Shown: one piece after another, positions 5,960 to 64,000 of the stretch
Numbering within the stretch: the stretch's first letter is position 1
Layout: each line of letters starts with the position of its first letter
Source: a virus
DNA: 64,000 nucleotides
Reading direction: 5' to 3' (one strand)
Virus record (IMG/VR): IMGVR_UViG_3300050821_005690
Span: 38,450-102,449 of that record
Notes under the pieces: generated by a model
Told to the model about the DNA's origin: nothing
Seen by the model: only the letters and a program-made list of their open reading frames with translations
The model's database searches: none
Program-made: the position numbers and the translations under genes

Positions 5960-6189
5960 CAGGCCTCCAAGATGAGCAAGCGGACGCGCGCGATCGTGTC
6001 GACGCTTGAACGCCCTACGAGTTCCTTGTGGACAATCTGGGCGAGACGCTCGCGCTCGGCGCGGGTGTCGGGCACGAAGACCATGCCTTCCTCGTAGTAG
6101 CGATAGAGCCAGCCGCCGGGGACGGCGAGGCGGTATGTGTTGTTGAGGCCGTCGACGCACTCCCATTTCGGCGGATTATTTTGCGGCAT
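5959..6189 (-). CDS. hypothetical protein, 76 aa
   Basis: Small mixed protein (WECVDGLNNTYRLAVPGGWL; RAERERLAQIVHKELVGR). A degraded copy of its 3' end lies at 5747-5790. Overlaps neighbours on both sides, indicating one transcript. Not recognised. Confidence 0.65.
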   Translation of the reverse strand: MPQNNPPKWECVDGLNNTYRLAVPGGWLYRYYEEGMVFVPDTRAERERLAQIVHKELVGRSSVDTIARVRLLILEA

Positions 6190-6355
6190 TGTAAGCCTCC
6201 TTGAAACGCCTCTGCCATGCGGCGTACTCGATGCGCACGCGCATCCAGTCCTCGTACTCGGCTGCGGTTAGCTCGATGGTCTCGTCATATTGCCCTTCGT
6301 CGCGGGCGACGTTGAAGTCTGGCCAGCGCTCGTCGAGTTCAAAGAAGTATTTCAT
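6176..6355 (-). CDS. hypothetical protein, 59 aa
   Basis: ATG chosen because AGGAG lies ~8 nt upstream. Acidic N-terminal half (MKYFFELDERWPDFNV) and a helical C-terminus rich in Trp/Arg (YEDWMRVRIEYAAWQRRF). Unknown. Confidence 0.65.
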   Translation of the reverse strand: MKYFFELDERWPDFNVARDEGQYDETIELTAAEYEDWMRVRIEYAAWQRRFKEAYNAAK

Positions 6356-29498: not shown

Positions 29499-31583
29499 AT
29501 GCCTTTCCTCTTAGGGGCTCCGCTTGCTGGGCGCCCCTACATGGGCGCGCTGCCTATCGCCGCGCCGTTCGCGGGCCGGCCGTTCGACGTCCCGTTCTCG
29601 CCGCGCCGGCCCCCCGAGTTTCAATTTCCGAACCTTGTCTTAACCGCAGCAGCACCGGCGAAGCCCGTCGGCGCGGTGCTGGATGAGACGATCCCGCAGG
29701 TCCTGCCCCGGCAACTCGACTTCCAGTTCCCAAATATCCCGGTGCTGGCCTCCGCGCAGTCGCGTGTTGTGCCCGTCGGCAAGGCGATCGACGAGACCGT
29801 CCCGCTGCCGCCGCCGCACCCGGTCGACTTCCAATTTCCCAACGTCGCGCTGCTCAATTTTGCCCAGTCGAGGGTCGCATCCGTCGGCAAGGTGATCGAC
29901 GAGACTACCCCCCAGGTCTTGCCTCGGCAGTTGGATTTCCAGTTTCCGAATCTTTCAGCGCTGGCCTCCGCGCAGCAGCAGGTCCACCCGGTCGGCGGTA
30001 CGGTCGACGAGACTGTTCCGCTGCTGCCGGCGCATCCGGTTGATTTCCAATTCCCCAATGTCGCGCTGCTCAACCTCGCGCAATCGCGGGTCGCGTCCGT
30101 TGGGAAGACGGTCGACGAGACTATTCCGTTGCCGCCGCCGCACCAACTCGACTTCCAGTTCCCAAATCTCTCGGCGTTGAACGCCGAGCAGTCACAAGTC
30201 TTCCCTGTTGGGACGGCGCTAGACGAAACTGTCCCGTCTCCGCAGCCCAAGCAACCAGACTTTCAGTTCCCAAATCTCCCCGCCCTTACGACCCCCGTTG
30301 CTAATCCAATCATCCCGCAGTTGTTCGGTGACCGACCCGCGCCGCAGCAGCGGGTGCAAGAGTTCGTGCCGCCGAACATTGCGCTTGGCTACTTTGCGCA
30401 ACTGCAAGTCAAGTCGGTTGGTGCGGCAATCGATGAAACGATCCCGGCGCCACTGCCGCACCAACTGGACTTCGCCTTCCCGAACGTTGCGTTCTTCACT
30501 GCCCAAGTCGTCACGGTCGGCAAGACGATCGACGAGAGCACGCCGCAGGTTCTACCGCGGCAACTCGACTTCCAGTTTCCGAACATTGCGCTGCTGAATT
30601 TTGCGCAGTTGCAGGTCTCTCCGGTTGGCGCAAAGCTGGACGAGACCCTTCCGCTGCCGCTGCCGCATCAACTCGACTTTGCTTTCCCGAATGTGGTCAT
30701 CGCAACGGCAACCGCTGCCGTTAAGCCGGTCGGAGGCGTGCTCGACGAGACCGTTCCGGCGCCGCTACCCCGGCAGTTGGACTTCCAGTTTCCCAACATC
30801 TCGGCGCTAAGCGCAGCGCAAGCGCAGGTCCATCCGGTTGGCGCTGCGGTGGACGAGACCGTTCCTCGGCCGCCTCCGCATCAATTAGACTTCCAGTTCC
30901 CCAACGTCGCGCTTCTTGGGTTTGAGCAACTACAAGTCAAGTCGGTTGGTGCGGTACTCGATGAGACCACACCGAAGCCGCTTCCACGCCCGCTAGACTT
31001 TGCGTTCCCGAACGTCGCCCTTGACATAGCTCAGATCCAGCCGCCGTTCGTTCCGATCTTCGATCGGCCGGTTGTGGCGCGGCCGCCGGTTGATGTGCTG
31101 TTCCCGAACCTGCTGACGACCACGCTTGTCGTCACCACCAAGCCGGTTAGCGTGCCGCTGTTTGGCGACCGCCCGGCGCCGCAGCCGCGGCCGCAGGACT
31201 TCGTTCCGCCGAACATCCCGCTGCTCAACTTCGCGCAATCGCAGATCAGGCCGGTTGGGACATCCATCGACGAGACCGTCCCGGCGCCGCAGGCGCGGCA
31301 GGTCGATTTCCTGTTTCCGAACCGAATCATCTTTACGACCGTTCCTGCCACACCACCCGTTCCGCAGTTGTTTGCTGATCGTCCGGCGCTGCTGCCGCCG
31401 TCGCAAGATTTCCTGTTCCCGAATCTCGCGCTGCTGGAGGGGGAGGAAGAAAGCTTAAGATGGCGCGCTATCCTCGCCCAAACGAGTCCGGGCGCTGTCC
31501 TGCTACGCCATCCCCCGGATTGGGTTATGAAGGAGATCGAGTACGAGGACGAAATCGCCATGATCATCGCTTCGTCGTTTTGA
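29499..31583 (+). CDS. FPN-repeat protein, 694 aa
   Basis: Built almost entirely from ~32-35-residue repeats: PVGKAIDETVPLPPPHP, then VDFQFPNVALLNFAQSRV. I count 18 FPN/PPN cores and 13 DET/DES cores. A related side-motif, LFGDRPAPQ, occurs about three times. The last ~70 residues are non-repetitive and acidic. No known family recognised. Position among tail proteins suggests an extended virion fibre. Confidence 0.75.
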   Translation: MPFLLGAPLAGRPYMGALPIAAPFAGRPFDVPFSPRRPPEFQFPNLVLTAAAPAKPVGAVLDETIPQVLPRQLDFQFPNIPVLASAQSRVVPVGKAIDETVPLPPPHPVDFQFPNVALLNFAQSRVASVGKVIDETTPQVLPRQLDFQFPNLSALASAQQQVHPVGGTVDETVPLLPAHPVDFQFPNVALLNLAQSRVASVGKTVDETIPLPPPHQLDFQFPNLSALNAEQSQVFPVGTALDETVPSPQPKQPDFQFPNLPALTTPVANPIIPQLFGDRPAPQQRVQEFVPPNIALGYFAQLQVKSVGAAIDETIPAPLPHQLDFAFPNVAFFTAQVVTVGKTIDESTPQVLPRQLDFQFPNIALLNFAQLQVSPVGAKLDETLPLPLPHQLDFAFPNVVIATATAAVKPVGGVLDETVPAPLPRQLDFQFPNISALSAAQAQVHPVGAAVDETVPRPPPHQLDFQFPNVALLGFEQLQVKSVGAVLDETTPKPLPRPLDFAFPNVALDIAQIQPPFVPIFDRPVVARPPVDVLFPNLLTTTLVVTTKPVSVPLFGDRPAPQPRPQDFVPPNIPLLNFAQSQIRPVGTSIDETVPAPQARQVDFLFPNRIIFTTVPATPPVPQLFADRPALLPPSQDFLFPNLALLEGEEESLRWRAILAQTSPGAVLLRHPPDWVMKEIEYEDEIAMIIASSF
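29621..31450 (+). repeat. in-frame tandem coding repeats (~100 bp)
   Basis: Roughly 18 degenerate units of about 96-105 bp encoding the DFQFPN and DETVP cores. Units diverge at third positions, showing the protein sequence is what is kept. Two subfamilies alternate (PQVLPRQLDFQFPN and PLPPPHPVDFQFPN), suggesting growth by duplication of unit pairs. Confidence 0.75.
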
Positions 31584-47955: not shown

Positions 47956-50900
47956 ATGGCCGAACCAGCCAGCAATCCAGCCGACGAAGAGGAAGTCTGG
48001 ACGAAGACGCCAGCAGGTGGCGAGACTTCGGCGCCGGTCTCAGCCGCGCCCGCCGCCGAACCGGCGGAAGAAGAAGTCTGGACGAAGACACCGTCCTGGC
48101 GCGGCTATCCACAGGTCATCGGGTCGGGCGTCGCGCAAGGTGCCATCACCTCGGTTGGCGGGGCGATGCAGGGTGCCGCAGAGCTTCGGCACCCCGACTC
48201 CGAGAACTTCTATACAAGGGCTTTGAAGGTCATCGACCGCGTCGACCGGGGCGAAAGCGTCCCGGAGGACGAAGACATCATCGGCTACCAAAAGCTGGTC
48301 AAGTCCGATGGTTCGCCTGATGTCGAGCACCGGAAGCAGGTGCGATCCGACGCTATGACCTCGGCCGGGATCGCCAAGTCTCCCGAGGCCCCAGCCGCTT
48401 ACGACCCAAGGGAAACGTGGCTCTACAAGACGGGAAAGGAAGTCTCCGAGTACGGCGAACGCAAGTTCCCGATGTCGCAAGAGGAAAAGGAGTCGTACAC
48501 CGGGCGCATTAGCTCTGGCCTCGGCGCTATAGCGCCCCTGGTGGTCGCTGGCGCGGTCGCAGGCCCGGAAGTGGCCATGGGGCTTGGTGCGGCCCAGATG
48601 GGCCTTGGTGCCGCGCACGAGACCGCCGAAGAGGCGCGCGCCAAGGGCGCTTCACCGGAGGCCGTATGGGATGCGGCCGCAACTTCCTTCGGGGTTAATG
48701 CTGCGCTCGGTGCGGTGAAGTTTGATGCCGCGCTCAGGCCGATCAATCGGCTGGCACCAGGGATTTACGACTGGGCGCGCGCTCGCCTGCTGCACGCCAT
48801 GCAGAGTGGTGCGATCTTCACCACTATCGGCGAGGCGCAGGAATGGATCGGCAAGGAGATTGCCAACAAGTTCTATGACGACAAGGCGGGATACAGCTTC
48901 GACATCAAGCGCGTCCTCAGTTCACTTGGCGTCGGCGCGATCGTGGGGCAATTGCATCCGACAAAATACGAAGCCAAGCCTGGAGAGGAAAAGCCCGCGG
49001 CCGAGACGCCTGGAGCGGAAACACCTCCGGCAAAAGGCGGAGAAACCTTCGAGGACATGATGGGTCCTCGGCCCGGGCCGCCGCCGCCGCCGGCCAGAGA
49101 CGATGTGCTTGACGTGGCGCGCGCTAACGGCATCACGCCGGAGGCGTTCGAGGCTCTTGCGCCGGAGGTTCAAAGGAACCTCATACGGGATTTCAAGGGC
49201 GACACATCGATCTTGCCGGAGCAGGATGAGCATCGTCCCGGCGTTCCTGGCGGGCTAAGTGATCCGTCTATCTTTGCGCCCCAAGCCTCGCCTACGGGGC
49301 CAAGCGACTTCCTGCGCGAACGCGGTTTGACCTATGAGCAACTGGCGTCTGCCGACACAAAATATCTGAAGGTTCTTCAGGACGAATGGGCGGCAACGCA
49401 CCCTGACGAACCGTTGCTCAATATCGAGACGTTCAAGCCATCTGATATCCAGGCCGATCCCCAGCGGTTCCAGTTCCGCACCGACCAGATCGATGCAGCG
49501 TCGGGCGTCACCGCGAAGAAGCTTCGCCCTGGTGGCTTTAACCAGACCTTTCCGATGGTGGTCTGGCGCGATCTCGCTGGCAAAGACTTCATCGTTGACG
49601 GTCATCATCGGCTTAATGTCACCAAGCAGATGGAGGCAGCAGGCGAGCCGATCACCGTTCAGGCAATCGTTCTCAGGGAGCAAGACGGCGTCACGCCGCA
49701 AATGGCGAAGGATTTCGGCGAGCGTCGCAACGACTACCGCGACGCTACGGCGGGCGCGCGCCGCATTCCGGGGCTCAATGCGACCCCGCAGGAAATTGCC
49801 GAACTTCAAAACGCTATAGGTCAAAAAGCTCACCCGGAAGAGATTGAGAAGCTTCCGATCGTTCAAAGGGCCTACGCTCTCGGCAATGCGCAAAAGCCGG
49901 TCCAGGATCAGCCCGGCTATGGGTCGCCGGAATATCGTGCCAATCGGGTCTTCAATTTCAATGGCGAGCGGGTTGTTGGTTGGGACAATGCCGTTGACCG
50001 GCTTGAGCAGCGGGCACGCTCGTTTTCGACGGACGGCCCGGTCGCGAATGAGCGACGTGCCTGGATTGTCATGGGACCGGGCGGCGCGGGCAAGTCAACC
50101 GCAGTCATGGACTCGTTAGCGAGGCGTACCCGCTCCGCCATCGTCGATGCCGATGAAGCCAAGCCAACGATGCCGGAATATGCCGGTGGCCTCGGCGCCG
50201 GTGCAGTGCACGAAGAATCGACCGACCTGACTTACGGGCCGCACGGTGTTCTGCCCCGGATAATCCAAAATGGTGCCAATTTTGTCGTTGGCAAGATCGG
50301 CCATAAAGCGTCGAGCATCCGCGAACTCCGGGACGCCCTGAAGGCCGAAGGCTACAAAGTCAGTCTAATCAATGTCGATATTGAGCCGCAGGAGGCGTTT
50401 CGGCGCCGCATGGGCCGTTTCCTGCGGACCGGCCGCATCAACTCGACCGGGTTCCATGGTGATACGAGTTCCGCCAAAGGTGTGGTCACCACTAAAAATT
50501 ACCATATATTGAAGGGAGAAGGTTTCGATGGCTCACTCACGATTGACAACAATCGCCCCGAGCGCCCTTGGGAAGGGTCCGAAGAACTCGCCCGAGAAAT
50601 TGGATTACAACAGCCACGAAGCCCAAGACGAGCGGGATACCAAGAAGATGCTGGCGGGCATACGCTCCAAGGCGAAACGGTTCCCAACCTCAGACCGCAC
50701 CGAGTAGTAGCCGCCGACGGCACGTCGATCGACGTTGTGCCGATTGTCGTCGAAGCCAGTCAGTTACGCACCTCCAAAGATCCTGGATACAATCAGGCGC
50801 TTCAACCGCGTCAGCGCGATCGGGCGGCAGCGGAGGCGCAGGAAAGATACATTGCGGCTAATCTTGATCCTGAACTCTTGGGCCATTCGGCAGAGGCCGA

Positions 50901-53900
50901 CCGAGGCGCCCCGATCGTTGGACCGGACGATCCCGATGTCGAGAGCGGCAATGGCCGCGTCGAGGCGATCAGGCTGGCTTATGGGCAGGAACGAAACGGC
51001 CAGCCGTCGACTGCACAAATCTATCGGAACTGGCTGACGCAGCAGGGCGTCGACGTCTCCCGCTACCGGGAACCCATCCTGGTGCGCAAGCGCATCACGC
51101 CGATGACGCTGGAGCAGCGGCGGGCTTTCACTGTAGCAGCCAATAAGGATACCAAACTTTCGATGTCGATGCCGGAACGGGCGCTGGTCGATGCCCGGAA
51201 CCTTGGCACCGACGCCTTGGCTCTCATTCACAATCCCGACGACCTGGGCGCGGCGATCAACCGGCCGTTCTTCCGCCGGTTCGTCGCTTCGCTGCCGCAG
51301 GCCGAGCAGGGCGGCATGGCGGACGCCAAGGGCAATCTGTCGGCCGAAGGCCTCGCGCGCCTGCGCAACGCTATCCTGGCCAAGGCCTATGGCGATGCGG
51401 GCCTATTGGCGCGGGTGACCGAGTCCACCAACGACGAAGTTAAGTCAATTTCGAATGCGCTGACGGCTGCCGCGCCGCAATGGGCGCGCTTGCGGGCGGC
51501 TGTCGCTGATGGGCGAGTGCGCCCGGACATGGACGCCACGCCGCAATTGATCGAGGCAATAAGCCGGACGGCCGAACTCCGCAGCAAGGGCATCAAGCTT
51601 CACGACTATCTCGCCCAACTGGACGCCTTCGACCGGCCGGAGCCGGAGGTCGAGGACTTCATGCTGGCGTTCTACCATCCGGTGACGCGGCGTGCCGCCT
51701 CCTCGTCGCGCATTGCCGATGAGCTTCGGTTTTTTGCCCAAGAGGCCGCCAAGGTTTCGTCCGAGAAGGGCCTTGATCTGGGGCTAGCGCCAGTTGACCG
51801 CGAGCAACTCAGCAAACTCATGCTCGCTAAGGCAAGGGAGGAATACGAAAATGAGCTACCCGACCGCGATGGCACTCGTGCAGGCGCGCGCGATGAAGAG
51901 GATGGCCGCGAAGTACGCGGACTTAGACCTGGGACGGAGGGCCAATTACCTTCACAAAGAAGCCCTCTTGGCTTTGAAGAAGAGGCAATCCGCGCTCAGC
52001 AACCCACGGCCGACGAACTCCGCGCCCTCCGAAGGCCAGAGAGGCGGCTGAACGCTCGCGATCCGAGCCCGTGGGAGATTCGGAACAGCTACAAGAACAA
52101 AGCGAACACGGCTCTCGCTCACAAGATTTTCCCATTTCTGACCCACATCTCATACGATCGGTTTGCCGCCCATCGCTGGGTCCTCAAGCTTATCGACTTC
52201 AATCCATCGAACGGCGAAGAGGTGGCGAGAGGCCTTGTTAACCATGGCTACATGGCCGAGGGCGCCGCCGCCAAATATCGCAATTCTCCGGCCGATCAGA
52301 GGCGGTACGACGCCGTTTACAAGGCGTTTGCCGACTGGAAGGCGAAGCAAGAGGCAGGGTTGTTCGGCGGAGAAAAGGCGCAGGTCCCGCTGCGGCGCGA
52401 AGATGCGTACTCGGAAAATCAGAAGCTTGTTTATGGCCTGAAGCCTGGGGGAGTCGTCGTTCATGACGCGCTGGAGCTTGCCGTCACGAGACTGCCGGGA
52501 GCGAGCGATAAATATCACGTCGAGGGGTTCAAGACGCCGTTTGCCGCCAGCGGCGCAATTGCAAAGCTAACCGACCTGCAAATGCAGCGGGGGGTAAGGT
52601 CGCCGACCGAGTCCACAGTCCTGAAGGGGCCGAACGCTCCCGCGGTCGAGCCCGGCGCCGAAGGTAAGCCGCAGACCGTCATCCCTGGCGCCGAGCGGAT
52701 CAGCACCGCGGAACTCCTTCGCCGTCGCGCCGCCGAGCCGCTTCGAGCAACCCAGCCGCAGGCAATTCCCGGTGGCCTGTTCGGCAATCTGCTTGGCCAG
52801 ACCGATCTTCTCGACGCCATCCGCAAGGAGCCGCGCGCGCGCAAGGTGTTTGGCCACGAGACCCTGATCGATCAAGCGCTGCGCAAGGTGCCCTTGACGT
52901 CTGGGGAAAATCTGCCCAACTTATTCGGAGAGGTAGAAGATGCTGGACAAAGACCTAGACCTGACCGAGGAAAGGTTCGCCCTGGAGCACAAGCGCTTCC
53001 TGGAGCAGCACAACCCAAGCGTCCTACGCGGGCAAAGCGACCCGGACAGCTATCTCTCTTCGGTGGGGAGGGCGGCGGGGGAGAGGCTCGACCACCTGAT
53101 GTCGCACTACCTCCGGGACAAGGACCTACAGAAGCTATCGGCCCCGAAGAGGGCACTGGCGTTACAAAGCCGCCAGTTCGAGGTGGAGGAAGTGATCAGG
53201 CACGACCTGATCTTCCAACCCCTGCCGGAGGGGCACGACCGCCCGTACGAGTAAAGCCATCGATCCGGCAAGGCCAGCAGGAAGCCGAGCAGAAAATCGC
53301 CGAGCGCTCGCGCTCGAACTATCGCATTACCGATGAGGACGCGATCGGCGAAGGCGGCCCGAAGCAGAAGGTTCGCCAGAACATCGAGGCTATCCGCCTT
53401 CTCAAGCAGATCGAGGACGAGGGCCGTGAGGCGACGCCCGGCGAGAAGGCCATCCTGGTCAAGTACACCGGGTGGGGCCACGTCGCGCAGGATATGTTCG
53501 CGACTACGGGCAATCGCGAAGCCTGGGAGGGCGAGCGCGCTCAGTTACGGGCGCTGCTGACTGACGAAGAACTAGAGGCGGCGCAGGCCTCCACCCCCAA
53601 CGCCCACTTCACCTCGCCCGACGTCATCCGGGGCATGTGGGACGCGATGGACCACCTCGGCTTCGAGGGCGGCAATACCATCGAGCCATCTGTCGGCATT
53701 GGGCATTTCATCGGTCTCATCCCCGACAAGATGGCGCCCAAGACGGCCTGGACGGCGGTCGAGCTTGATCCGATCAGCGCGCGGATCACGAAGGCGCTCT
53801 ATGCCGGGACGGAAGTGAACGCTCACGGATTCGAGGATCTGAAACGACCGGCCAATTATTACGACCTCGCCATCTCGAACGTGCCGTTCGGCAAATATAA

Positions 53901-56900
53901 TTTGCGGGAGAAGCCCTACGGCTCGTTCCCGATTCACAATTTCTTTTTCGTGAAGTCGCTCGACAAGGTGCGGCCGGGCGGCATCGTCGCTTTCATCACC
54001 TCGCGTTATTCCATGGATGCGCCGGAGCACACCGAGTTTCGGCGCTTGTTGGCAAAGACCTCCGATCTGGTCGGCGCCATCCGCCTGCCCGGCGGCAAAG
54101 AGGGCGCGTTTGCTGACAACGCCGGAACACAAGTCACGACCGATCTCCTGTTCCTGCGCAAAAAGATACCCGGTCAGGATTTCGCTAGCGGCCATAAATG
54201 GGACGGGCTGAAGGATATCGAAACCCCGGAAGGCCCCACCAAGATCAACGAGTATTACGTCGCTAATCCGCACATGATGCTCGGCGACATGCGCCTGATC
54301 GGCTCACAGTACGGCCCCAACGAACCCGTGCTGATCGGCGATCCGAACGGGCTGCGCGAGAAGATCGCGGAAGCGGTGGCCAAAAACACCCCGGCTGGCG
54401 CAATGACGCCTCGCACCGAGGCCACGACCGTTGAAAACATTCCCGCGGGCGACATTGATGCGGGCATTAAAGACGGGGCCTTCTTCCTTCAGAACGGCAA
54501 GCTGCATCAGCGGGTCGCCGGACTGGGCGTGCCGAGGGATGTGTTGCCCGCCGATCACGCTCGCATTGAGCGCCTCATCGGCCTTCGCGATCTCTATAAC
54601 GGTCTGCTCGGGGCCCAACTCGGCGGCGAGGGAGATCGGGAAGCCCTGCGCAAGCAATTGCGCGAGGCCTACGATGATTTCGTCAAAGAGCACGGACCGA
54701 TCAATAAGGAAGTCCGCACGGTCACCAAGCGCCTGACCCAGGCAGGCGAGCCCGTCGTTATTACCAGAACGCCGAATCTGCGGACGTTCAAGGAGGACCC
54801 CGACGCGTGGAAGGTGGCATCGCTCGAACACTACGATGCCGAGAAAGACACGGCGAAGCGTTCCGACATTCAAACGCGAGATGTTATCGCTCCCCCGCGC
54901 GAGCGAGAGATCAGAGGGCCTTCTGATGCTCTAGCCGCCTCGCTCAACGACACCGGCGGCATCGACCTCGATCACGTTGCCAACTCGCTCAATGTCGACA
55001 GCCACGATGCTGCCATCTCGGCCCTCGGCAACCTCATCTTCCACGACCCCAACGGACGGCAGTGGAAGACCGCCGACGAATATCTCAGTGGCAACGTCGT
55101 AGAGAAGCTGGAGGAAGCGCGCTCGATCGCGCAAAGCGATCCGTCGTTCCAGCGCAACGTAAAGGCCCTGGAGAAGGTGCAACCGAAGCCGGTCACCGGC
55201 AGCCAGATTTATGCTGGCTTCGGAGCGACATGGATTCCCGGTGAAGTGTACGAGAGCTTCCTGGAGGATCATCTTGGCGCCAGTGATGTTCACGTCCAAC
55301 AGATCCCGATCACCGGCGAGTGGCGCGTCGAGGGCGACACTTTCGCGAGAGATGCGCGCATCAAGTACATCCCGAAGGATCAGAATGGCATTTCGCGTGC
55401 AAACGTCCGTGAGATGGTCTCTGCCGCCCTGAACGGGCGCACCATAACCATCAGGGACAAGATTAAGAATCCTGATGGCAGCACCAGCGAGCGGGTCAAC
55501 ACCGCAGCAACCCAGGACGCCTCTAACAAACTTGAGGCTTTGAAGGAGGCCTTCACCGGCAATCCCCAAGAAGGAATCGACGATTGGTGGTCAAAGGACG
55601 ATGAGCGCCGGCAGCGGATGGAGGGAATCTTCAACCGCACTCACAACAATCTCGCCCCCCGCGAGTTTGACGGCTCACACTTGGAGCTGCCGGGGCTCAA
55701 TCCGATGTTCGCCGAGCGTAAGCATCGCCTCGACGCGATCTGGCGGATTATCCAGCGCGGCAACACCCTGCTCGGGCATGCGGTCGGAAGCGGCAAAACC
55801 GTGACCATGATCGCGGCGGGCATGGAGCAAAAGCGCCTCGGGCTGATCAACAAGCCCGCCTATGTGGTGCCGAACCACATGCTGGAGCAGTTCTCGCGCG
55901 AGTTCCTACAGGCCTACCCGAACGCCAAAATCCTCGTCGCCAGCAAAGAGGAAACGTCTGCGGATCATCGCAAGGCCTTCCTGGCCAAGGTGGCGTCGAA
56001 CGACTGGGACGGCGTTGTCATCACGCACGACGCTTTCGGCCGGATCAACATGGGCCAGGAGTATCGGCGCCAGTTCATTCGCGACCAGATCGGTGAAGCC
56101 ATCCGGGTCATCCAGGCCGAGAAGGCCGAGTCCGGCGCCAAGTCACCCACGGTCAAGCGCCTGGAGGCAGCCAAGAAGCGACTGGAAGAAAAACTGCAAA
56201 AGCTGCTGAACGAAGAGCGCAAGGATGAGGGCACCTCGTTCGAGGAAAGCGGCATCGATCATCTGTTCGTCGATGAGGCGCACCTGTTCAAGAACCTGCA
56301 TTTCTTCACGCGCCTGGGCGGTATCAAGGGTTTGGCCACAAGCGAGGCGCAGCGCTCCGAGGACTTGTTTTTGAAAATCCGATACCTGGAGCAGAAGCGC
56401 CCTGGGCGCTCGGCGGTGTTCGCCTCGGGCACGCCGATCTCGAACACCATGGCCGAAGCCTGGACCATGATGCGCTATCTCCAATTGGACAATCTGCGCG
56501 AGCGCGGCCTTTCGAACTTCGATGACTGGGCCCGGACCTTCGGCCGGATCTCCAAGAAGATGGAGACTTCGCCGGACGGGCGTACGCTGCAGGAAGTCGC
56601 CTCGATGTCCTTCGGCAATGTGCCGGAGTTGGGTGCCCTTTGGAACGAGGTTGCCGACACCAAGACGGCGGACATGCTCAAGCTGCCGCGGCCGGACGTG
56701 GTGCGCGAGAACGGCGAGAAGGGGGTCACGACCGTCGAGGCCGAGCCCTCCCGCCAGGAAGAGGCGGCCATTCAAGCCCTGGTCGCCGAGGCCGAGCATA
56801 TGAGGGCGCACCCGAAGCGGCCGGAGCCGGGCGACCGCATCATGCTCAACATCGTCACGGACGGCCGCAAGGTGGCGACCGATGGACGCCTGCTTGGCGA

Positions 56901-59900
56901 TATGGATTTCAACCCGCGCGGCAAGGTGGCGCTCGCGGTCAACAACATTCACAAAATCTGGGAGGAAGGTAATCAGGACCCCGACGCTCCAAACAAGGGG
57001 CAGATGGTTTTCCTCGATCTCGGCGTGCCGAAGAAAGGCGGCGGCGCCGATCGATTTGACCTTTATCGCGATCTCAAGCAGCGCCTAGTCGAGAAAGGCA
57101 TTCCGGCAAAGGACATTGCGTTTATCCACGACGCGGACAGCGACGACAAAAAGGCCAAGCTGTTCGGGGCTGTGCGCAGCGGCAAGGTCAGAGTCTTGGT
57201 TGGCTCGACCGGCAAGATGGGTATGGGCACCAATGTCCAGGACCGCCTCATCGCTAAGCACGACATCGATGCGCCGTGGAAGCCTGCCGAGGTGGAGCAG
57301 CGCGACGGCCGCATCGAGCGCCAAGGCAATTTGAACGCGAACGTGCGGATCTACCGCTACGTGACCAAGCGCTCGTTCGACGCCTTCATGTGGCAGACCC
57401 TTGAGCGCAAGGCGAACATGCTCAACCAGTTCTTGAGCGGCGCCAAGGGCTCGCGAACCATGGAGGACGTGGGCGAGGTATTGCCGGAGGCGGCCGAGTT
57501 GAAGGCAGCCGCGAGCGGCGACCCGCGCATCATGGAGCATGCCGAGCTTGATCGGCGGGTGCGGCAACTGTCCTCGCAGCGGCGCTCGTTCGAGCAAACG
57601 CAGCAGCGCGCGACTTACGAGATCGGCGTGGGCAAAAGCCAACTCAAGCAGTATCAGGACCATTTGCCCGGCGCGCGCCTGGACGCCGACATGGTCAACG
57701 ACCTGTCCGGCAAGAACTTCCAGGTCGACCTCGGTGACCTGGGGCCATTCACCGAGCGCAAGGCCGCGGGCGATGCCATTCTAGATGCCCTGCGTAAGCT
57801 CGACTCGCGAAGTTACTACCGACCTGTCGTGCTCAACATGGGCCGCATGTCCGGGTTCGACATGCAGATGCAGGTGCAAACTCACTACGACCACAGCAGC
57901 GGCACGGTGCTCGTAGCCAACCCTTCACTGAAAGGCCCGTCCGGCGCCGGCTACATCGCCAGCGACTTTTATATCAATGAGCACACGGAAGGTCTCGCAG
58001 TAATCCGCCGCCTCGAAGGTGCGCTTGGCCGGGTCAAAGACGAGCCGTCGCGCATAGAAGGGCTCATCAAAAACCAGCAAAATGAAATCGAGCGGCTTCA
58101 GAAGACGTTGGGCGAGACGTGGCCGCGCGAGCAGGAGTACCGCGAGGCCTTGGCGAAGCTCGACGCTCTGACGAAGGCACTCAAGGCACCGAAGCATCCT
58201 GACGTCGCCGAGATGGAGCACGAGAACGCTTACGCCAAGCTCCAGGCCGAGGCGCTCGAAGCGCAGCACGAGTCGCCGATCTTTGACGAAGACAAGGAGT
58301 GGCTGTCTAAGCCCAAGCTGATCAAGGAGAAGGCGGAGAAGGTCGCTGAGACCGTCCGTGATATCCCGCGCCCGCGCGATGTGGTTGGCGTCAGCGACAT
58401 CACCAAGGTCGGGCCGCCGCACGACATGCAAAAGCATGCGGTGTTCGGCCTGCCGCTCAATCCCTTGAGCGCCCTGGAGCAACTCAAGGGGCATTCGTTC
58501 AACGTCAGTTATGCGACCAGGGCGAAGCTCGGGCGGCAGTTGGACGACGCCATCCGTCTTGTCGGCAAGGACAAGATGCTCCTACTCGACAACGGTGCCT
58601 TCTCATTGCACCGCCAGGGAAAAAGCACCCTCGAACCGGGCTACATGGAGGATTACGAGAAGTGGGCGGGCGGCATCATGGACCGCTCGCCGCAGGCTAT
58701 TGCTGTTGTGCCCGATGTGATCGGCGGGACCGAGCACCAGAATGCGCAGCTTGTCCGCGACTGGCTCGGCGGCAAGATCGACCCGGACCGCTCAATGGCG
58801 ATCTGGCACCTGCACGAGAGCATGGATTACCTGAAATACCTCGCTCAAAGCTTCAATCACATCGGGTTTGGAAGCTCCGGTCAGTTCTGGAAGGTAGGCA
58901 CACCCGAGTGGCACGCCCGCATCCAGGAAGCGCTCGACACGATCCAGAAGATGGAGGACGACGGCGAGATCACCCGTCCGCGCATTCACATGATGCGGGC
59001 CCAGTCGCAAGCGCACCTCTATCCGTTCGATAGCTCGGACTCGACCAACGTCGCGGTCAATCACAATCGCTTCCGCGAACTCTACCCCGGGCCGGACCAC
59101 GTCGGCCGCATGGCCGAGCGCATCAACGAGCGCATCCAGGGGAGCGCCACAGGCAAGGAAACTCCGCACCAAGAAGCCCGGCCGCTTGGCGAGACGCCGG
59201 AGCGCCCGGACTCTGATCTGTACGCCTTGGCACAGTGGTTCAACCACAATTACGAAGTGGTGAAGCGGCAGGGCGACCTGTTCGACCACATCAAAGAGAA
59301 CCGTCCGGCATGGGGGAAGGGCGCGCAAGAGCGCATCCCTACCGACTGGGAGACGGCGCAGCGGCGAGTGATCGGCCTACTTGATGAGAACGCTATCGAT
59401 CTCGGCCCCACTACTCGCGCCTATGTCAGCGAGAAGTGGAGTGCCAACGAGCGCAAGATTGCCGACGCCGTCCAGGCGATCGGCGACCGCATGGCGCCGC
59501 AATCCTCGATCTATGGCGCCAAGGCCTTGCACATGCACGGTTCGCCGATCTGGGGTGTGTTCGTCAACTCGAAGGCCTTCCCGCAGACCATCGCGTGGTC
59601 GCTGGAGCGCGCGGGCAAGCTCGGCGATGCAGTCGAGAGGGCGGGCCCGCTGGCGCGCGTCGCCACGACCGTCCGTCACGAGATTATCCACCACCTCAAG
59701 AACTCGGGGCTTATCCGCCCCGACGAATGGAAGGCCCTTGAGCAGGCTGCGAAGGAGGGCGATTGGCTCAAGAAGTACGACATCGAGGACCGCTACTCTC
59801 ATCTCAATGAAGCCGGCAAGCTGGAGGAAGCAATTGCCGATCATTTCGGGCAATGGGGGCAAGAGCGCGAAATCCTCAAGCAGATTAAGGACCCGATACA

Positions 59901-62900
59901 GCGACTGGTTCGGCAAGCGTACATGCGCATGGACCTGTTCTTCCGGCAGGTGGCGGCGGCGGCGCGCAAGTTCCTCGGCAAGGATGCGACCGCCAGCGAC
60001 GTGTTCTCGCGCATCGAGAGTGGCGAAGTCGGCAAGCGCACCTCAGAGCAGATCGAAGCGCAGAAGCGCTATATGGCGGAACACCCCGACGAGTTCGATG
60101 AGGGTGCTAAAGCCCAGACCCCTGGCGGCGAGGCGCGCGAGCGTCGTCAAGCGGCCCGCGCCGCCGGCGTGACGCCGCCGAGAGAAGGCGCCTTCGATCG
60201 CATCCTTCGCAATGAGACCGCCGACAAGCTTCGCGAGGCCACTGCCAAGCTCGCCGGGCAATTCGGCGTCGATAAGTTCGTTCGCGATGCGCAGGTGCGA
60301 TGGACGCCGATGGCCGCGCGCGATGCGACGGTCGAGTTCCGCTACGACATCAAGCAGTACATGAACGCGCGGCGGCAAGCCCGTGAGGACTGGAATCGCT
60401 TTGACAAGCGCCTCGAAAAGGAATTTTCGGACGAGCAGCGCAAGCGGATGTACGACGCCGCCGATGAGGAAAGCGTGGCTCTGCAACAGGGCCGCCCGAC
60501 AAATGGCATTGGCCTTTCTCGTCTGACGGGAAATGAGCGCGATGCTGTCAAAGCCCTACAAGATCGTTCCCAGCTTAATTGGGAAACAGCCAGACTGCTC
60601 AAGATCGTCAGGGGTGACGGCCTGCCGAGCTACGTCCCGCGCATGCTGGTGCGCGCAGTCGAAGGCATTTGGGGAAGGAAGTTCGAGAAGGGTGTCGGCC
60701 CCGGGGCCGAGGTGGTGCGCGACATCCGCACGCTGGCGCTCGCCAACGCCAAGCTCGAAGAGGCGATTGCGGGCAAGCAACTCGTCAATACGATCAAGGA
60801 GATCGGCGACCGCGCTGGCAATCCGCTGGTTAACGTCGGCGGCGCCCCGGTGCATCGGCCGGGCCCGGAGGCCATGGTCGGGCACGCGCTCGATCAGGCC
60901 TTCGGCCACGACTTCACGACCACGACGCCAAACCTGAAGCATCGCAAGTATCTCACCCGCGAAGAGACTGAGGCGGCGGCGAACCGCCTCGCGCCGCGTA
61001 CGGAAACGCCCGAGTGGACGTTCCTCAACCATCCGTCCCTGCAGGAATTGCGTCTAATGACGGTGGACCCGGAGGGCGACACCTATCGGAGCAACGTGAA
61101 GCGCGTGAGCGGCATGACCGTACCGAAGCGCATGACCGCACTGAAAGATCAGTACGGGGACGTTCACTGGGAAAAGGCGCCGATTTACTTCCGCAGAGAG
61201 CTAGAGGGGCCGCTGAAGGCGGCGATGCAAGCCGGCGGCGGGTTTGAACGTGCGTTGATGCAGCTAAAGGGCAAGATCATGAGCTACATCATGTTCTCGC
61301 CCCTGATCCACAATCAGATCGAGTGGGGCCGTGCGCTCCCGGCGGCGCCCGGGAAAGTGCTGACGTTCCAGGTTTACTTGGAAGGCAATCGCATCGCCAA
61401 CGATCCGGCGCAGATGCGCTTGGCCATCTCCGGTGGCGTCGTTCCGATCGGCGGTCACGGCTTCATGCAGGACGTGTCCTCGATTGCGGAAGCCCCGACC
61501 ATGCGGGCGGGCAAGTCGATCGAGGCAAAGACGCTCGGTTACGGCGCAGCCGCCATTGGCCATCTGACCAGACTCTACGACCCGGCCACGGGCATGAACG
61601 AGGTGCGCAAGGCGACCGACTGGTTCGGCAATATGTGGAACAACGTCTTCCTCTGGGATCGGGTTCGCGATCTGCAGATGGGGCTTTGGAGCTACATCAA
61701 AGACGACATGATCGCGAAGGGCTATCACGCCATTGCGGCGAACGTGGCCGCTGCGCATTTTGCCAACCGATACGCCGGTGCGCTCCCGCTGGAAGCCATG
61801 TCGGGGTTTGCGCGCGGGGTCGCCAACGTGGCGTTGTTCTCGCGCTCCTTCACGCTCGGCAACGTGGGGGCGATCAAGGATGCGGTGGTTGGTCTGCCGC
61901 GCGATGCCCAGGCTTTGATTCAGCACCAGCTTGGGTGGGAGGAACTGGCGAAGACGCAGAGCTATGTGAAGCGCAAGTCGCGCGTGATGCTGGCGATGGA
62001 TGCGGGGCTTTATTTCGCCACCCTCTCGCTCATGCAGAGTGCGTTCCATGTTGCCGGTCCCGGCCACACCATGATGACGCTCGCTGGCACAATTGCTGGT
62101 GGCGCGCTCGGCGGTCGTGCTGGTCCGTACGGCCGCCTTGCGGCGGCGGCGGCATTGGGCGCGGGCGGCTTCGGCCTTGCCAGCGTGCTCGGTGCTGGTC
62201 CTGGCACGCGCAAGCTTGAGGATGAGCTTCAAGGCTACTGGGATCGCCTCGGTGATCTGGCGGCCAAGGTCTATGAACACCCGGTGCAGGCGGTTGCGAA
62301 TCCCTTCTTCCAGTACAAGGCCCTGATGGGCCTGTCGGCGACCTCGGAGAACGAGCCCGGCAAGGAGTGGCGCATCCTTTGGGGATACGACAAGGACGGC
62401 AGAGCCCAATACATACGCCTGCCTGTGGGCAAGGTGACCGAAGAGCTTATGAGTTGGGGCATCGAGCCGCTTGATTTGCTCCACCGCAAGCTGAGCACGT
62501 TCCTGAAGCCAATTACGCAAATCTGGGATAATAACGCCGGGTTCAATCAGAAGGTCTACGATAAGAACGCGGAGGGCGCGGTTGAAAATGCGGAGGTCCT
62601 CGCCAAGATCGCGGGGCTCATAATCTCAGAGCAAATGCCGTGGGACGTTCTGAAGACCGGCGCGGAGGCGGTGGGTAGTGGCCCGACAGCCGACACCGCG
62701 CGCGGGAAGCTTGTCGGGCAGGCGACCGGGTTTACCTTCAGTCAGGGGCACCCCGAGGGCCCGGAGGCTGGTGTTCTGGCGCATGCGCGCGAGCGATACG
62801 AGTACCGCAAGCAGCAAGCGTTGCCCGAAATTCGCAAGCTGATCCGTGACGGTAAGGTGGACGATGCGTACAAGCTCATGGACAACATCCACATCCCGCC

Positions 62901-64000
62901 TGGGCTGCAAAAATACTACGTCTTCACCACGGAGAATCCGAAGGCGGGCCTTTCCAACCGGATGCTCCGCGACTTCATGCAGTACGCCTCGCCGGAGGAA
63001 ATCGAGCAATTCCAGCGGGCGCAAGAGCGGGCTGCGGCTGAGACCCCGCAGGCCGAACCGACGGCCGGCCATGCCGACGGCGGCGCGGTCGAGGATGCGG
63101 ACCTGGGCGATGCGCCGACGCCAAAGCCGGGGCAGATTATCCCCACGCGCGACGATATAAGGTCCGCGCCGTCCAAGGTCGCACACAGCCTCGGCGAGGT
63201 GACCGGCGTCAACGATGCTGTGAAGGCCGCACGCGGGGAGATGACCCCGGAAGAGGAAAAGAAGTTTGCTCTCACGGCGGCGGCGGGTCTGCTTCCTGGT
63301 GGACGCGGCCTCGGGTCCGCCGCTTCGCTGGCGCGGATGATCGGCCGGAGGGCCTTCGGCACAGAGCTTCACTTCGAGCGCGCGCGCGGCGGCCGGGTTG
63401 TCCCGCCCGGCCTATCCGCTGAGTACGCCGATAACCTCGGGCGCTGGGGCATTTTCAGCAAGAGCGGTGAACTGCTATCGAGCGGCCCGACGCGCAATCA
63501 GGCGATCGAGGCCCTGGTGCATCGACGCGCGAGCGGCGGTCGCGTCGATGCACGGAACATCAACCATAATCCGTCAGAGGCGCAAAAACGTAGTGGCAAC
63601 TACGCCAAGGACCATCTGCATTGGAACGGCCTGCCGCTGACCATCGAGAACGCCAGGGGCTCGGTCCGCCGCGGCGTTGGCAGAGACGGCAAGCCGTGGG
63701 CCGTCCGCATGCCGGCGCACTATGGCGATGTGGCGGGTACGAAGGGCAAGGACGGCGATAAAGTTGACTTCTACCTGGGGCCGCACACCAAGGCGCCCAT
63801 AGTGTACGTGGTGGATCAGAAGGATCACGAGACCGGCCGTTTCGATGAGCACAAGGCCATGGGCGGCTTCGCCAGCAAGCTCCATGCGCAGCGGACCTAC
63901 GAACAGGCGTTCTCGGACGGCAAGGGCAAGCACCGCATCCACGCCATCACGGCCGCGCCAGTCGCGGCGTTCAAGCGCTGGCTGGACGAAGGCGACACCA
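47956..64000 (+). CDS. giant polyvalent protein, at least 5,348 aa, cut by window end
   Basis: One uninterrupted frame. Order (residues): tandem EEEVWTKTP (1-45); hydrophobic helix region (189-255); ParB-like nuclease, DGHHRLN at 548; zeta-toxin-like kinase, GPGGAGKS at 707; ddrB-type ParB, ESGNGR at 996; helical LPD region (~1,340-1,700); DNA methylase, EPSVGIGHF at 1,910 and SNVPFGKYN at 1,974; SNF2 helicase, GSGKT at 2,611, VDEAH at 2,772, QRDGRIERQG at 3,115; coiled coil; TGT/DpdA-like domain (~3,480-3,730); zincin HEIIHH at 3,908; large hydrophobic LPD region; GG motifs; pyrophosphatase-like domain, VDFYLGP at 5,270. The family (DarB-like polyvalent proteins) is thought to be ejected and to shield phage DNA. 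Domain assignments are from motifs only. Confidence 0.9.
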   Translation, partial: MAEPASNPADEEEVWTKTPAGGETSAPVSAAPAAEPAEEEVWTKTPSWRGYPQVIGSGVAQGAITSVGGAMQGAAELRHPDSENFYTRALKVIDRVDRGESVPEDEDIIGYQKLVKSDGSPDVEHRKQVRSDAMTSAGIAKSPEAPAAYDPRETWLYKTGKEVSEYGERKFPMSQEEKESYTGRISSGLGAIAPLVVAGAVAGPEVAMGLGAAQMGLGAAHETAEEARAKGASPEAVWDAAATSFGVNAALGAVKFDAALRPINRLAPGIYDWARARLLHAMQSGAIFTTIGEAQEWIGKEIANKFYDDKAGYSFDIKRVLSSLGVGAIVGQLHPTKYEAKPGEEKPAAETPGAETPPAKGGETFEDMMGPRPGPPPPPARDDVLDVARANGITPEAFEALAPEVQRNLIRDFKGDTSILPEQDEHRPGVPGGLSDPSIFAPQASPTGPSDFLRERGLTYEQLASADTKYLKVLQDEWAATHPDEPLLNIETFKPSDIQADPQRFQFRTDQIDAASGVTAKKLRPGGFNQTFPMVVWRDLAGKDFIVDGHHRLNVTKQMEAAGEPITVQAIVLREQDGVTPQMAKDFGERRNDYRDATAGARRIPGLNATPQEIAELQNAIGQKAHPEEIEKLPIVQRAYALGNAQKPVQDQPGYGSPEYRANRVFNFNGERVVGWDNAVDRLEQRARSFSTDGPVANERRAWIVMGPGGAGKSTAVMDSLARRTRSAIVDADEAKPTMPEYAGGLGAGAVHEESTDLTYGPHGVLPRIIQNGANFVVGKIGHKASSIRELRDALKAEGYKVSLINVDIEPQEAFRRRMGRFLRTGRINSTGFHGDTSSAKGVVTTKNYHILKGEGFDGSLTIDNNRPERPWEGSEELAREIGLQQPRSPRRAGYQEDAGGHTLQGETVPNLRPHRVVAADGTSIDVVPIVVEASQLRTSKDPGYNQALQPRQRDRAAAEAQERYIAANLDPELLGHSAEADRGAPIVGPDDPDVESGNGRVEAIRLAYGQERNGQPSTAQIYRNWLTQQGVDVSRYREPILVRKRITPMTLEQRRAFTVAANKDTKLSMSMPERALVDARNLGTDALALIHNPDDLGAAINRPFFRRFVASLPQAEQGGMADAKGNLSAEGLARLRNAILAKAYGDAGLLARVTESTNDEVKSISNALTAAAPQWARLRAAVADGRVRPDMDATPQLIEAISRTAELRSKGIKLHDYLAQLDAFDRPEPEVEDFMLAFYHPVTRRAASSSRIADELRFFAQEAAKVSSEKGLDLGLAPVDREQLSKLMLAKAREEYENELPDRDGTRAGARDEEDGREVRGLRPGTEGQLPSQRSPLGFEEEAIRAQQPTADELRALRRPERRLNARDPSPWEIRNSYKNKANTALAHKIFPFLTHISYDRFAAHRWVLKLIDFNPSNGEEVARGLVNHGYMAEGAAAKYRNSPADQRRYDAVYKAFADWKAKQEAGLFGGEKAQVPLRREDAYSENQKLVYGLKPGGVVVHDALELAVTRLPGASDKYHVEGFKTPFAASGAIAKLTDLQMQRGVRSPTESTVLKGPNAPAVEPGAEGKPQTVIPGAERISTAELLRRRAAEPLRATQPQAIPGGLFGNLLGQTDLLDAIRKEPRARKVFGHETLIDQALRKVPLTSGENLPNLFGEVEDAGQRPRPDRGKVRPGAQALPGAAQPKRPTRAKRPGQLSLFGGEGGGGEARPPDVALPPGQGPTEAIGPEEGTGVTKPPVRGGGSDQARPDLPTPAGGARPPVRVKPSIRQGQQEAEQKIAERSRSNYRITDEDAIGEGGPKQKVRQNIEAIRLLKQIEDEGREATPGEKAILVKYTGWGHVAQDMFATTGNREAWEGERAQLRALLTDEELEAAQASTPNAHFTSPDVIRGMWDAMDHLGFEGGNTIEPSVGIGHFIGLIPDKMAPKTAWTAVELDPISARITKALYAGTEVNAHGFEDLKRPANYYDLAISNVPFGKYNLREKPYGSFPIHNFFFVKSLDKVRPGGIVAFITSRYSMDAPEHTEFRRLLAKTSDLVGAIRLPGGKEGAFADNAGTQVTTDLLFLRKKIPGQDFASGHKWDGLKDIETPEGPTKINEYYVANPHMMLGDMRLIGSQYGPNEPVLIGDPNGLREKIAEAVAKNTPAGAMTPRTEATTVENIPAGDIDAGIKDGAFFLQNGKLHQRVAGLGVPRDVLPADHARIERLIGLRDLYNGLLGAQLGGEGDREALRKQLREAYDDFVKEHGPINKEVRTVTKRLTQAGEPVVITRTPNLRTFKEDPDAWKVASLEHYDAEKDTAKRSDIQTRDVIAPPREREIRGPSDALAASLNDTGGIDLDHVANSLNVDSHDAAISALGNLIFHDPNGRQWKTADEYLSGNVVEKLEEARSIAQSDPSFQRNVKALEKVQPKPVTGSQIYAGFGATWIPGEVYESFLEDHLGASDVHVQQIPITGEWRVEGDTFARDARIKYIPKDQNGISRANVREMVSAALNGRTITIRDKIKNPDGSTSERVNTAATQDASNKLEALKEAFTGNPQEGIDDWWSKDDERRQRMEGIFNRTHNNLAPREFDGSHLELPGLNPMFAERKHRLDAIWRIIQRGNTLLGHAVGSGKTVTMIAAGMEQKRLGLINKPAYVVPNHMLEQFSREFLQAYPNAKILVASKEETSADHRKAFLAKVASNDWDGVVITHDAFGRINMGQEYRRQFIRDQIGEAIRVIQAEKAESGAKSPTVKRLEAAKKRLEEKLQKLLNEERKDEGTSFEESGIDHLFVDEAHLFKNLHFFTRLGGIKGLATSEAQRSEDLFLKIRYLEQKRPGRSAVFASGTPISNTMAEAWTMMRYLQLDNLRERGLSNFDDWARTFGRISKKMETSPDGRTLQEVASMSFGNVPELGALWNEVADTKTADMLKLPRPDVVRENGEKGVTTVEAEPSRQEEAAIQALVAEAEHMRAHPKRPEPGDRIMLNIVTDGRKVATDGRLLGDMDFNPRGKVALAVNNIHKIWEEGNQDPDAPNKGQMVFLDLGVPKKGGGADRFDLYRDLKQRLVEKGIPAKDIAFIHDADSDDKKAKLFGAVRSGKVRVLVGSTGKMGMGTNVQDRLIAKHDIDAPWKPAEVEQRDGRIERQGNLNANVRIYRYVTKRSFDAFMWQTLERKANMLNQFLSGAKGSRTMEDVGEVLPEAAELKAAASGDPRIMEHAELDRRVRQLSSQRRSFEQTQQRATYEIGVGKSQLKQYQDHLPGARLDADMVNDLSGKNFQVDLGDLGPFTERKAAGDAILDALRKLDSRSYYRPVVLNMGRMSGFDMQMQVQTHYDHSSGTVLVANPSLKGPSGAGYIASDFYINEHTEGLAVIRRLEGALGRVKDEPSRIEGLIKNQQNEIERLQKTLGETWPREQEYREALAKLDALTKALKAPKHPDVAEMEHENAYAKLQAEALEAQHESPIFDEDKEWLSKPKLIKEKAEKVAETVRDIPRPRDVVGVSDITKVGPPHDMQKHAVFGLPLNPLSALEQLKGHSFNVSYATRAKLGRQLDDAIRLVGKDKMLLLDNGAFSLHRQGKSTLEPGYMEDYEKWAGGIMDRSPQAIAVVPDVIGGTEHQNAQLVRDWLGGKIDPDRSMAIWHLHESMDYLKYLAQSFNHIGFGSSGQFWKVGTPEWHARIQEALDTIQKMEDDGEITRPRIHMMRAQSQAHLYPFDSSDSTNVAVNHNRFRELYPGPDHVGRMAERINERIQGSATGKETPHQEARPLGETPERPDSDLYALAQWFNHNYEVVKRQGDLFDHIKENRPAWGKGAQERIPTDWETAQRRVIGLLDENAIDLGPTTRAYVSEKWSANERKIADAVQAIGDRMAPQSSIYGAKALHMHGSPIWGVFVNSKAFPQTIAWSLERAGKLGDAVERAGPLARVATTVRHEIIHHLKNSGLIRPDEWKALEQAAKEGDWLKKYDIEDRYSHLNEAGKLEEAIADHFGQWGQEREILKQIKDPIQRLVRQAYMRMDLFFRQVAAAARKFLGKDATASDVFSRIESGEVGKRTSEQIEAQKRYMAEHPDEFDEGAKAQTPGGEARERRQAARAAGVTPPREGAFDRILRNETADKLREATAKLAGQFGVDKFVRDAQVRWTPMAARDATVEFRYDIKQYMNARRQAREDWNRFDKRLEKEFSDEQRKRMYDAADEESVALQQGRPTNGIGLSRLTGNERDAVKALQDRSQLNWETARLLKIVRGDGLPSYVPRMLVRAVEGIWGRKFEKGVGPGAEVVRDIRTLALANAKLEEAIAGKQLVNTIKEIGDRAGNPLVNVGGAPVHRPGPEAMVGHALDQAFGHDFTTTTPNLKHRKYLTREETEAAANRLAPRTETPEWTFLNHPSLQELRLMTVDPEGDTYRSNVKRVSGMTVPKRMTALKDQYGDVHWEKAPIYFRRELEGPLKAAMQAGGGFERALMQLKGKIMSYIMFSPLIHNQIEWGRALPAAPGKVLTFQVYLEGNRIANDPAQMRLAISGGVVPIGGHGFMQDVSSIAEAPTMRAGKSIEAKTLGYGAAAIGHLTRLYDPATGMNEVRKATDWFGNMWNNVFLWDRVRDLQMGLWSYIKDDMIAKGYHAIAANVAAAHFANRYAGALPLEAMSGFARGVANVALFSRSFTLGNVGAIKDAVVGLPRDAQALIQHQLGWEELAKTQSYVKRKSRVMLAMDAGLYFATLSLMQSAFHVAGPGHTMMTLAGTIAGGALGGRAGPYGRLAAAAALGAGGFGLASVLGAGPGTRKLEDELQGYWDRLGDLAAKVYEHPVQAVANPFFQYKALMGLSATSENEPGKEWRILWGYDKDGRAQYIRLPVGKVTEELMSWGIEPLDLLHRKLSTFLKPITQIWDNNAGFNQKVYDKNAEGAVENAEVLAKIAGLIISEQMPWDVLKTGAEAVGSGPTADTARGKLVGQATGFTFSQGHPEGPEAGVLAHARERYEYRKQQALPEIRKLIRDGKVDDAYKLMDNIHIPPGLQKYYVFTTENPKAGLSNRMLRDFMQYASPEEIEQFQRAQERAAAETPQAEPTAGHADGGAVEDADLGDAPTPKPGQIIPTRDDIRSAPSKVAHSLGEVTGVNDAVKAARGEMTPEEEKKFALTAAAGLLPGGRGLGSAASLARMIGRRAFGTELHFERARGGRVVPPGLSAEYADNLGRWGIFSKSGELLSSGPTRNQAIEALVHRRASGGRVDARNINHNPSEAQKRSGNYAKDHLHWNGLPLTIENARGSVRRGVGRDGKPWAVRMPAHYGDVAGTKGKDGDKVDFYLGPHTKAPIVYVVDQKDHETGRFDEHKAMGGFASKLHAQRTYEQAFSDGKGKHRIHAITAAPVAAFKRWLDEGDT
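50528..50707 (+). CDS. nested small gene A in the +1 frame, 59 aa
   Basis: AAGGGAGAAGG then ATG at a normal distance, inside the giant frame at the junction between the kinase and ddrB-ParB domains. The protein (MAHSRLTTIAPSALGKGPKN...RDTKKMLAGIRSKAKRF) is soluble and basic. By hand count about three quarters of its third codon positions are G/C, whereas fewer than half are in the giant frame over the same bases. Not recognised. Confidence 0.55.
   Translation: MAHSRLTTIAPSALGKGPKNSPEKLDYNSHEAQDERDTKKMLAGIRSKAKRFPTSDRTE
51851..52051 (+). CDS. nested small gene B in the +1 frame, 66 aa
   Basis: Strong AGGGAGG 9 nt before ATG. Helical protein (MALVQARAMKRMAAKYADLD...RRANYLHKEALLALKK) with roughly 80% G/C third positions, at the junction after the ddrB-ParB domain. 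In the same bases the giant frame reads as an Arg/Gly/Asp-rich linker. Function unknown. Confidence 0.6.
   Translation: MSYPTAMALVQARAMKRMAAKYADLDLGRRANYLHKEALLALKKRQSALSNPRPTNSAPSEGQRGG
52940..53254 (+). CDS. nested gene C, TnpV-like protein, 104 aa
   Basis: GGAGAGG 6 nt before ATG. ERFALEHKRFLEQHNPSVLR, YLSSVGRAAGERLDHLMSHY and FEVEEVIRHDLIFQPLPEGH follow the TnpV layout (long helix, EHRPxL-like turn, AxERLD helix, AEEIVxxELI end). TnpV proteins are small and of unknown function, and often lie beside SNF2/methylase giants in mobile elements. Hand-counted G/C third positions: about 86% here against about 35% in the giant frame, which reads a Pro/Gly/Arg linker. Strong case for a real nested gene. 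Confidence 0.7.
   Translation: MLDKDLDLTEERFALEHKRFLEQHNPSVLRGQSDPDSYLSSVGRAAGERLDHLMSHYLRDKDLQKLSAPKRALALQSRQFEVEEVIRHDLIFQPLPEGHDRPYE

Follow-up and report, generated by a model that had tools for sequence, protein, structure and literature searches.

Small genes nested in a shifted frame at the domain seams of a giant phage gene, with a probable TnpV protein among them

Can DNA that is read as part of a giant phage protein also encode small proteins in another frame? The question arises in a window of 64,000 nucleotides (nt), the whole stretch analysed here, which comprises bases 38450-102449 of a 102,449-base IMG/VR virus record (IMGVR_UViG_3300050821_005690). A single frame, open for more than 5,300 codons, runs there from about 47956 to the end of the record, and a preliminary description had pointed to three short genes, A, B and C, lying within it in a shifted frame. 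Our analysis indicates that these are genuine coding sequences located at domain seams, a reading that is near certain for C, strongly supported for B and moderately supported for A. Moreover, it is very probable that C is both dual-coding and a member of the TnpV family (PF14198), overprinted within the giant gene. The coordinates first given for the three genes proved exact; all are in the +1 frame relative to the giant frame, each with an ATG and a Shine-Dalgarno (SD)-like site. The features are as follows.

47956-63999, + strand: giant DarB-like polyvalent gene (host frame), running on to the end of the window and of the record; frame open from 47911
50508-50527, + strand: SD region of A (attgaaGGGAGaaggtttcg)
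50528-50707, + strand: proposed nested gene A, 59 amino acids (aa), ATG start, +1 of the giant frame, identified by signature, position and frame
51831-51850, + strand: SD region of B (ggcaaGGGAGGaatacgaaa)
51851-52051, + strand: nested gene B, 66 aa, ATG start, +1 of the giant frame, basic protein predicted with two helices
52920-52939, + strand: SD region of C (cttattcGGAGAGGtagaag)
52940-53254, + strand: nested gene C, 104 aa, ATG start, +1 of the giant frame, very probably of the TnpV family, directly 5′ of the methylase domain
53047-53069, + strand: dual-coded stretch, QLSLFGG of the giant frame over SYLSSVG of C

Where do these genes lie with respect to the giant protein? The DarB-like methylase-helicase profile phrog_10089 matches the giant gene with 1652.7 bits (E ~0), and further profile matches identify a zeta-toxin-like kinase, ddrB-ParB, a queuine tRNA-ribosyltransferase-like part and an inorganic pyrophosphatase (InPase). 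Each nested gene had been proposed to sit at a domain junction, and the limits of the profile matches place it there: A lies between the end of the zeta-toxin-like match (50439) and the start of ddrB-ParB (50716), B starts 5 nt past the end of the phrog_5143 match (51846), and C ends 12 nt short of the start of the DarB-like match (53266). Across all three the giant frame reads low-complexity linkers.

Which features distinguish A, B and C from other open frames of the same gene? The SD-like sites 5′ of them are tgaagGGAGaaggtttcg, gcaaGGGAGGaatacgaaa and tcGGAGAGGtagaag, respectively. The G+C content of third codon positions (GC3) is.73 in the nested against.49 in the giant frame for A,.81 against.53 for B and.85 against.34 for C, the whole giant gene having a G+C content of.66/.45/.75 at codon positions 1/2/3. 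In a codon-usage scan of 265 sliding windows across the giant gene, another forward frame wins at A, B and C only, the few remaining exceptions corresponding to the antisense shadow frame. Synonymous shuffles of the giant gene yield on average 18.2 open reading frames (ORFs) of at least 55 aa starting with ATG, compared with 21 observed, all of them +1. Length and common frame are thus explained by composition and were dropped as evidence, so that the shared frame stressed in the preliminary description is true but uninformative. When an SD match of at least 4 bases is combined with a GC3 exceeding that of the giant frame by more than 0.2, the shuffles predict 0.013 ORFs and three are seen, which bears out the weight given there to strong SD sites and G/C-rich third positions.

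Searches with the single sequences of C or B as patterns gave no matches, because relatives are only 40-50% identical; profile searches succeeded. A relative (L002/L013) whose giant gene is 60-67% identical to that of the window carries a C homologue of 103 aa in the same frame, preceded by a GGAGG site. A profile of the methylase region retrieved 80 IMG/VR loci, and a +1 ORF is located just 5′ of the methylase (within ~580 nt) in 79 of them, under a lenient cut-off by which a few loci with a nested score not above the giant score were assigned by family resemblance and SD site. These ORFs are mostly ~80-130 aa long after start choice. The exception, L065, has its nested TnpV farther upstream (909-1265, +1), plus a second copy over the end of the gene. 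This second TnpV (L065, 7995-8369) and one at 10118-10496 of L089, which is frame-broken, each share ~20 nt with the 3′ end of the SNF2 gene.

How has C evolved in these phages? Substitutions in C, compared within five phage groups, peak at nested position 3, that is, giant position 1, while in the adjoining methylase, taken as control, the peak falls on giant position 3. In each of the five, the nested frame also gives a higher amino-acid identity than the giant frame. In the group of the window the identity of C is.50 nested against.42 giant, and the same substitution pattern is present in weaker form, for C as well as for B. The third frame contains 2-10 stops per locus over C. In the giant frame, no stop is found over C in 46 loci, when 186 would be expected if C alone mattered. 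Taken together, the substitutions and the stops indicate that both frames are selected at C, the nested one at the protein level and the giant one for stop avoidance. The preliminary description had named drift of the nested frame beneath a conserved giant linker as the outcome that would speak against nested genes; relatives show the reverse. Within C, the QLSLFGG of the giant frame resembles what we take to be a bacterial beta-clamp-binding motif, and QLSLF or QVSLF is kept in L009, L013, L017 and L011; a second function of this dual-coded stretch is possible. The nested gene is present and unannotated in phages POI1126, Atu_ph08, BcepIL02, Itty13, VvAW1, SopranoGao, LASTA, PEp14, Stean, Pavtok, JC1 and CSP3, and likewise, as judged by frame-switch, in phage 8P. 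In the Itty13 record (L008), the annotation of the DarB-like gene includes opposite-strand ORFs, which are probably miscalls driven by GC content.

What kind of protein is C? Its orthologues at the same seam match TnpV with 49.8 (L002), 46.2 (L009) and 56.9 bits (L016), above the curated cut-off of 27 bits. Residues 12-91 of C align to positions 25-111 of the profile (~110 aa), so that C, like its relatives, covers most of it. In a six-frame search of the entire 102-kb record, C was the only TnpV match. AlphaFold, run with 47 family members, predicts an all-helical protein with a predicted local distance difference test (pLDDT) score of 89.8. PADLOC and NCBIfam returned nothing useful for A, B or C. 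The assignment of C to TnpV is made by sequence only, because genomic context is not part of the family definition.

Transposons of the Tn4451/Tn6104 type and integrative mobilizable elements (IMEs) are known to carry TnpV as a conventional gene, whereas here it is overprinted in +1 within a polyvalent methylase/helicase gene. When genomes were scanned with a methylase profile of the Clostridia type, 80 loci were obtained, and in about 63 of them a TnpV is nested in +1 of a giant SNF2/methylase frame, usually 1-3.5 kb 5′ of the methylase; most of the loci lacking it are contigs that end before that point. The nested Clostridia copies are full-length (profile 1-111), have an SD match of at least 5 bases in 59 of 62 cases (typically AAAGGAG) and, in three groups, evolve fastest at nested position 3, the giant gene upstream evolving as an ordinary gene. 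Ten Clostridia genomes contain 30 TnpV loci, 14 of them nested in a frame of 870 codons or more; the other 16 stand alone, with no long open frame across them. In a TnpV tree, which has few columns and no determined root, the nested Clostridia copies fall within the standalone radiation and the phage copies lie on one side of a well-supported branch.

Which of the two readings came first? Since TnpV exists as a standalone, independent family, C probably came first and the giant linker later. The idea that small spacer genes survived when an operon was fused into one frame holds to the extent that C comes from an independent family that probably predates the giant reading, but the former operon itself was not seen. 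No relatives with A, B and C between separate domain genes were found, the nearest cases being L065, L089 and PBC5, and a standalone TnpV gene is in most cases preceded by a large serine recombinase gene, not by phage domain genes. In PBC5 (L004, 1-5497), an N-terminal ORF (orf33) ends in TnpV, the core of which shares its frame, and the methylase gene is separate; this arrangement reflects either a natural split or a frameshift. As in classical overprinted viral genes, the nested gene lies on the same strand in a shifted frame. There, however, the nested gene arises de novo, whereas C comes from an independent family and the host linker is probably what is new. Reading across an older gene would then be one way in which the linkers of giant proteins can come about, the reverse of textbook overprinting.

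B and A have far fewer relatives. Guessing their homologues in L002 by ORF length (4018-4197 and 6106-6300) gave the wrong ORFs, and alignment of the giant genes the right ones. B, predicted to be a basic two-helix hairpin, is 51% identical to its three relatives in the group of the window when read in the nested frame and 35% when read in the giant frame, and nested position 3 evolves fastest; this pattern argues that protein-level selection acts on the nested frame of B as well. Searches of other phages, outside this group, gave no match to B. The position and frame of A are common to L009, L013 and L017, with identities of.29 nested and.22 giant, a weak difference near saturation. Signature, position and frame are what support A, for which we have moderate confidence; a modest chance remains that A, alone among the three, is a fortuitous ORF. 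More nested ORFs may be present in related giant genes. A possible fourth, ~40 aa long and very basic, lies between B and C in L017 (3489-3632), the nearest relative. BcepIL02-type giant genes contain a second nested ORF, 54 aa long and in +1 (MLEPLSVQIGLVLM...), with an AGGAGG site and a strong frame switch (3908-4072 of L007, with equivalents in L036, L038, L054, L055 and L067), and further +1 nested ORFs with SD sites occur 3′ of the methylase in the giant genes of L014 (9261-9452) and L006 (11732-11941).

How might such an arrangement work? Ribosomes would initiate internally at the SD sites of A, B and C on the giant mRNA, giving rise to small +1-frame proteins, and the same DNA would also be translated in the giant frame as a flexible linker. 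TnpV-family proteins such as C would have been kept overprinted in phage DarB-like genes as well as in Clostridia mobile elements, there within SNF2/methylase genes, and this linkage suggests an accessory role. We tentatively propose that C is co-expressed with the giant protein and might assist its folding, restrain it in the producer cell or help to load it into the virion or the transfer machinery. The giant protein, which combines methylase-helicase, ParB-type, kinase and other domains, resembles the DarB-like polyvalent proteins of Iyer et al. 2017 (PMC5512222), P1 DarB and Bcep22-like phages. In P1, the separate proteins Ulx and DdrB are used to bring DarB into the capsid, and Ulx 'aids DarB localization' (PMC9024508). 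Both are encoded near the DarB gene, as C is, but by separate genes, and Ulx has no sequence similarity to C, so that the parallel is one of functional analogy only. Searches for homologues among P1 darB, Ulx and DdrA gave no match. In virions of JC1, the homologue of the giant protein, gp69, is present with 51 unique peptides (PMC9144972). C is a partner candidate for anti-restriction proteins delivered by virions or by conjugation. More speculatively still in its reach, though we would give it about the same less-than-even credence, DarB-like genes of both phages and Clostridia mobile elements might be a multi-output class in which several conserved small proteins, including TnpV, are encoded in +1 at the seams, come from one mRNA with the giant protein and serve it, the linkers being read over older genes. 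In any case, a conserved protein family appears to be hidden within genes that pass for single ones in annotation pipelines. A word search of PMC5512222 for overlapping or nested genes and for TnpV found no mention of them, and a literature search found no description of such nested genes, though it covered open-licence papers only and such absence is not proof of novelty.

Several observations weigh against this interpretation. Translation of A, B and C is deduced from comparison of sequences. C of the window itself scores 17.0 bits against PF14198 (E 0.006), below the curated cut-off, and neither PDB nor BFVD yielded a match to its predicted fold with E below 1, so that no function can be read from it. 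The loci that enter the counts of substitutions and of stops are not phylogenetically independent. B is known from four phages only, and a profile built from the A proteins of L009, L013 and L017 does not find A of the window. P1 darB has no nested TnpV, and C is for this reason not universal for DarB-type proteins. Finally, not every TnpV is linked to a DarB-like gene: some copies lie beside serine recombinases, which is unexpected for a dedicated partner of the giant protein.

Could C then act as an excisionase (recombination directionality factor) that is nested only to save genome space? Directly upstream of the standalone TnpV lies, in 6 of the 7 loci typed, a large serine recombinase gene, and an Xis-like role of Tn4451 TnpV has been postulated from homology (PMC3158075). 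However, among 43 records of phages that carry the nested gene a large serine recombinase (PF07508) is found in one and a tyrosine integrase in 30, and neither kind is found in the record of the window or in four of the five nearest relatives tested, though records may be incomplete. The recombinase that usually accompanies standalone TnpV is thus mostly absent from phages carrying the nested copy, and C remains tied to the DarB-like gene and not to an integrase. This census disfavours an excisionase role, which we consider unlikely here.

A further explanation, to which we assign a similarly small probability, is that TnpV is a relic of mobile elements that inserted in snf2-like genes, kept since its loss would break the giant frame. 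Streptococcus suis IMEs carrying TnpV do insert into snf2 (PMC9815147). In L193, where the TnpV core is at 1552, the end of a large serine recombinase gene directly precedes TnpV, whose flank is still giant-frame-like, a mobile element having possibly inserted into an snf2 gene at the TnpV seam. Nevertheless, purifying selection acts on the TnpV protein itself, beyond what an open giant frame requires, and start sites with their SD sequences are conserved. Such insertion may explain the origin of nested TnpV, not its maintenance.

Two other explanations are very improbable. If the giant gene were a row of cistrons and not one protein, with A, B and C as conventional genes between them, the giant frame would be open by accident, as the low-complexity linkers and the separate annotation of the N-terminal ORF and the methylase in PBC5 might suggest. 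Yet the absence of stops over C in the 46 loci argues otherwise, standalone TnpV in the ten Clostridia genomes keeps no long open frame whereas nested copies do, and the 51 peptides of JC1 virions are assigned to a single giant product, though without regard to the seam. Alternatively, +1 translation could serve to regulate synthesis of the giant protein by pausing or coupling, with no need for the small protein, given that strong SD sites midway in a long mRNA could by themselves slow ribosomes; against this, amino acids are conserved throughout C, its fold is predicted with confidence and it has standalone homologues. That A, B and C are all chance open frames in a GC-rich gene with odd linker codon use is hardly credible, for although +1 ORFs of this length are common in the giant gene and A has no detectable homologue, the excess of ORFs combining SD site and shifted GC3, the conserved proteins and reversed substitution pattern of C and B, and the fold and TnpV membership of C already refute it for C and nearly do so for B.

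Elsewhere in the window, 29499-31583 encodes a 694-aa protein built from many repeats of the DETVPxPxPHQLDFQFPN type.

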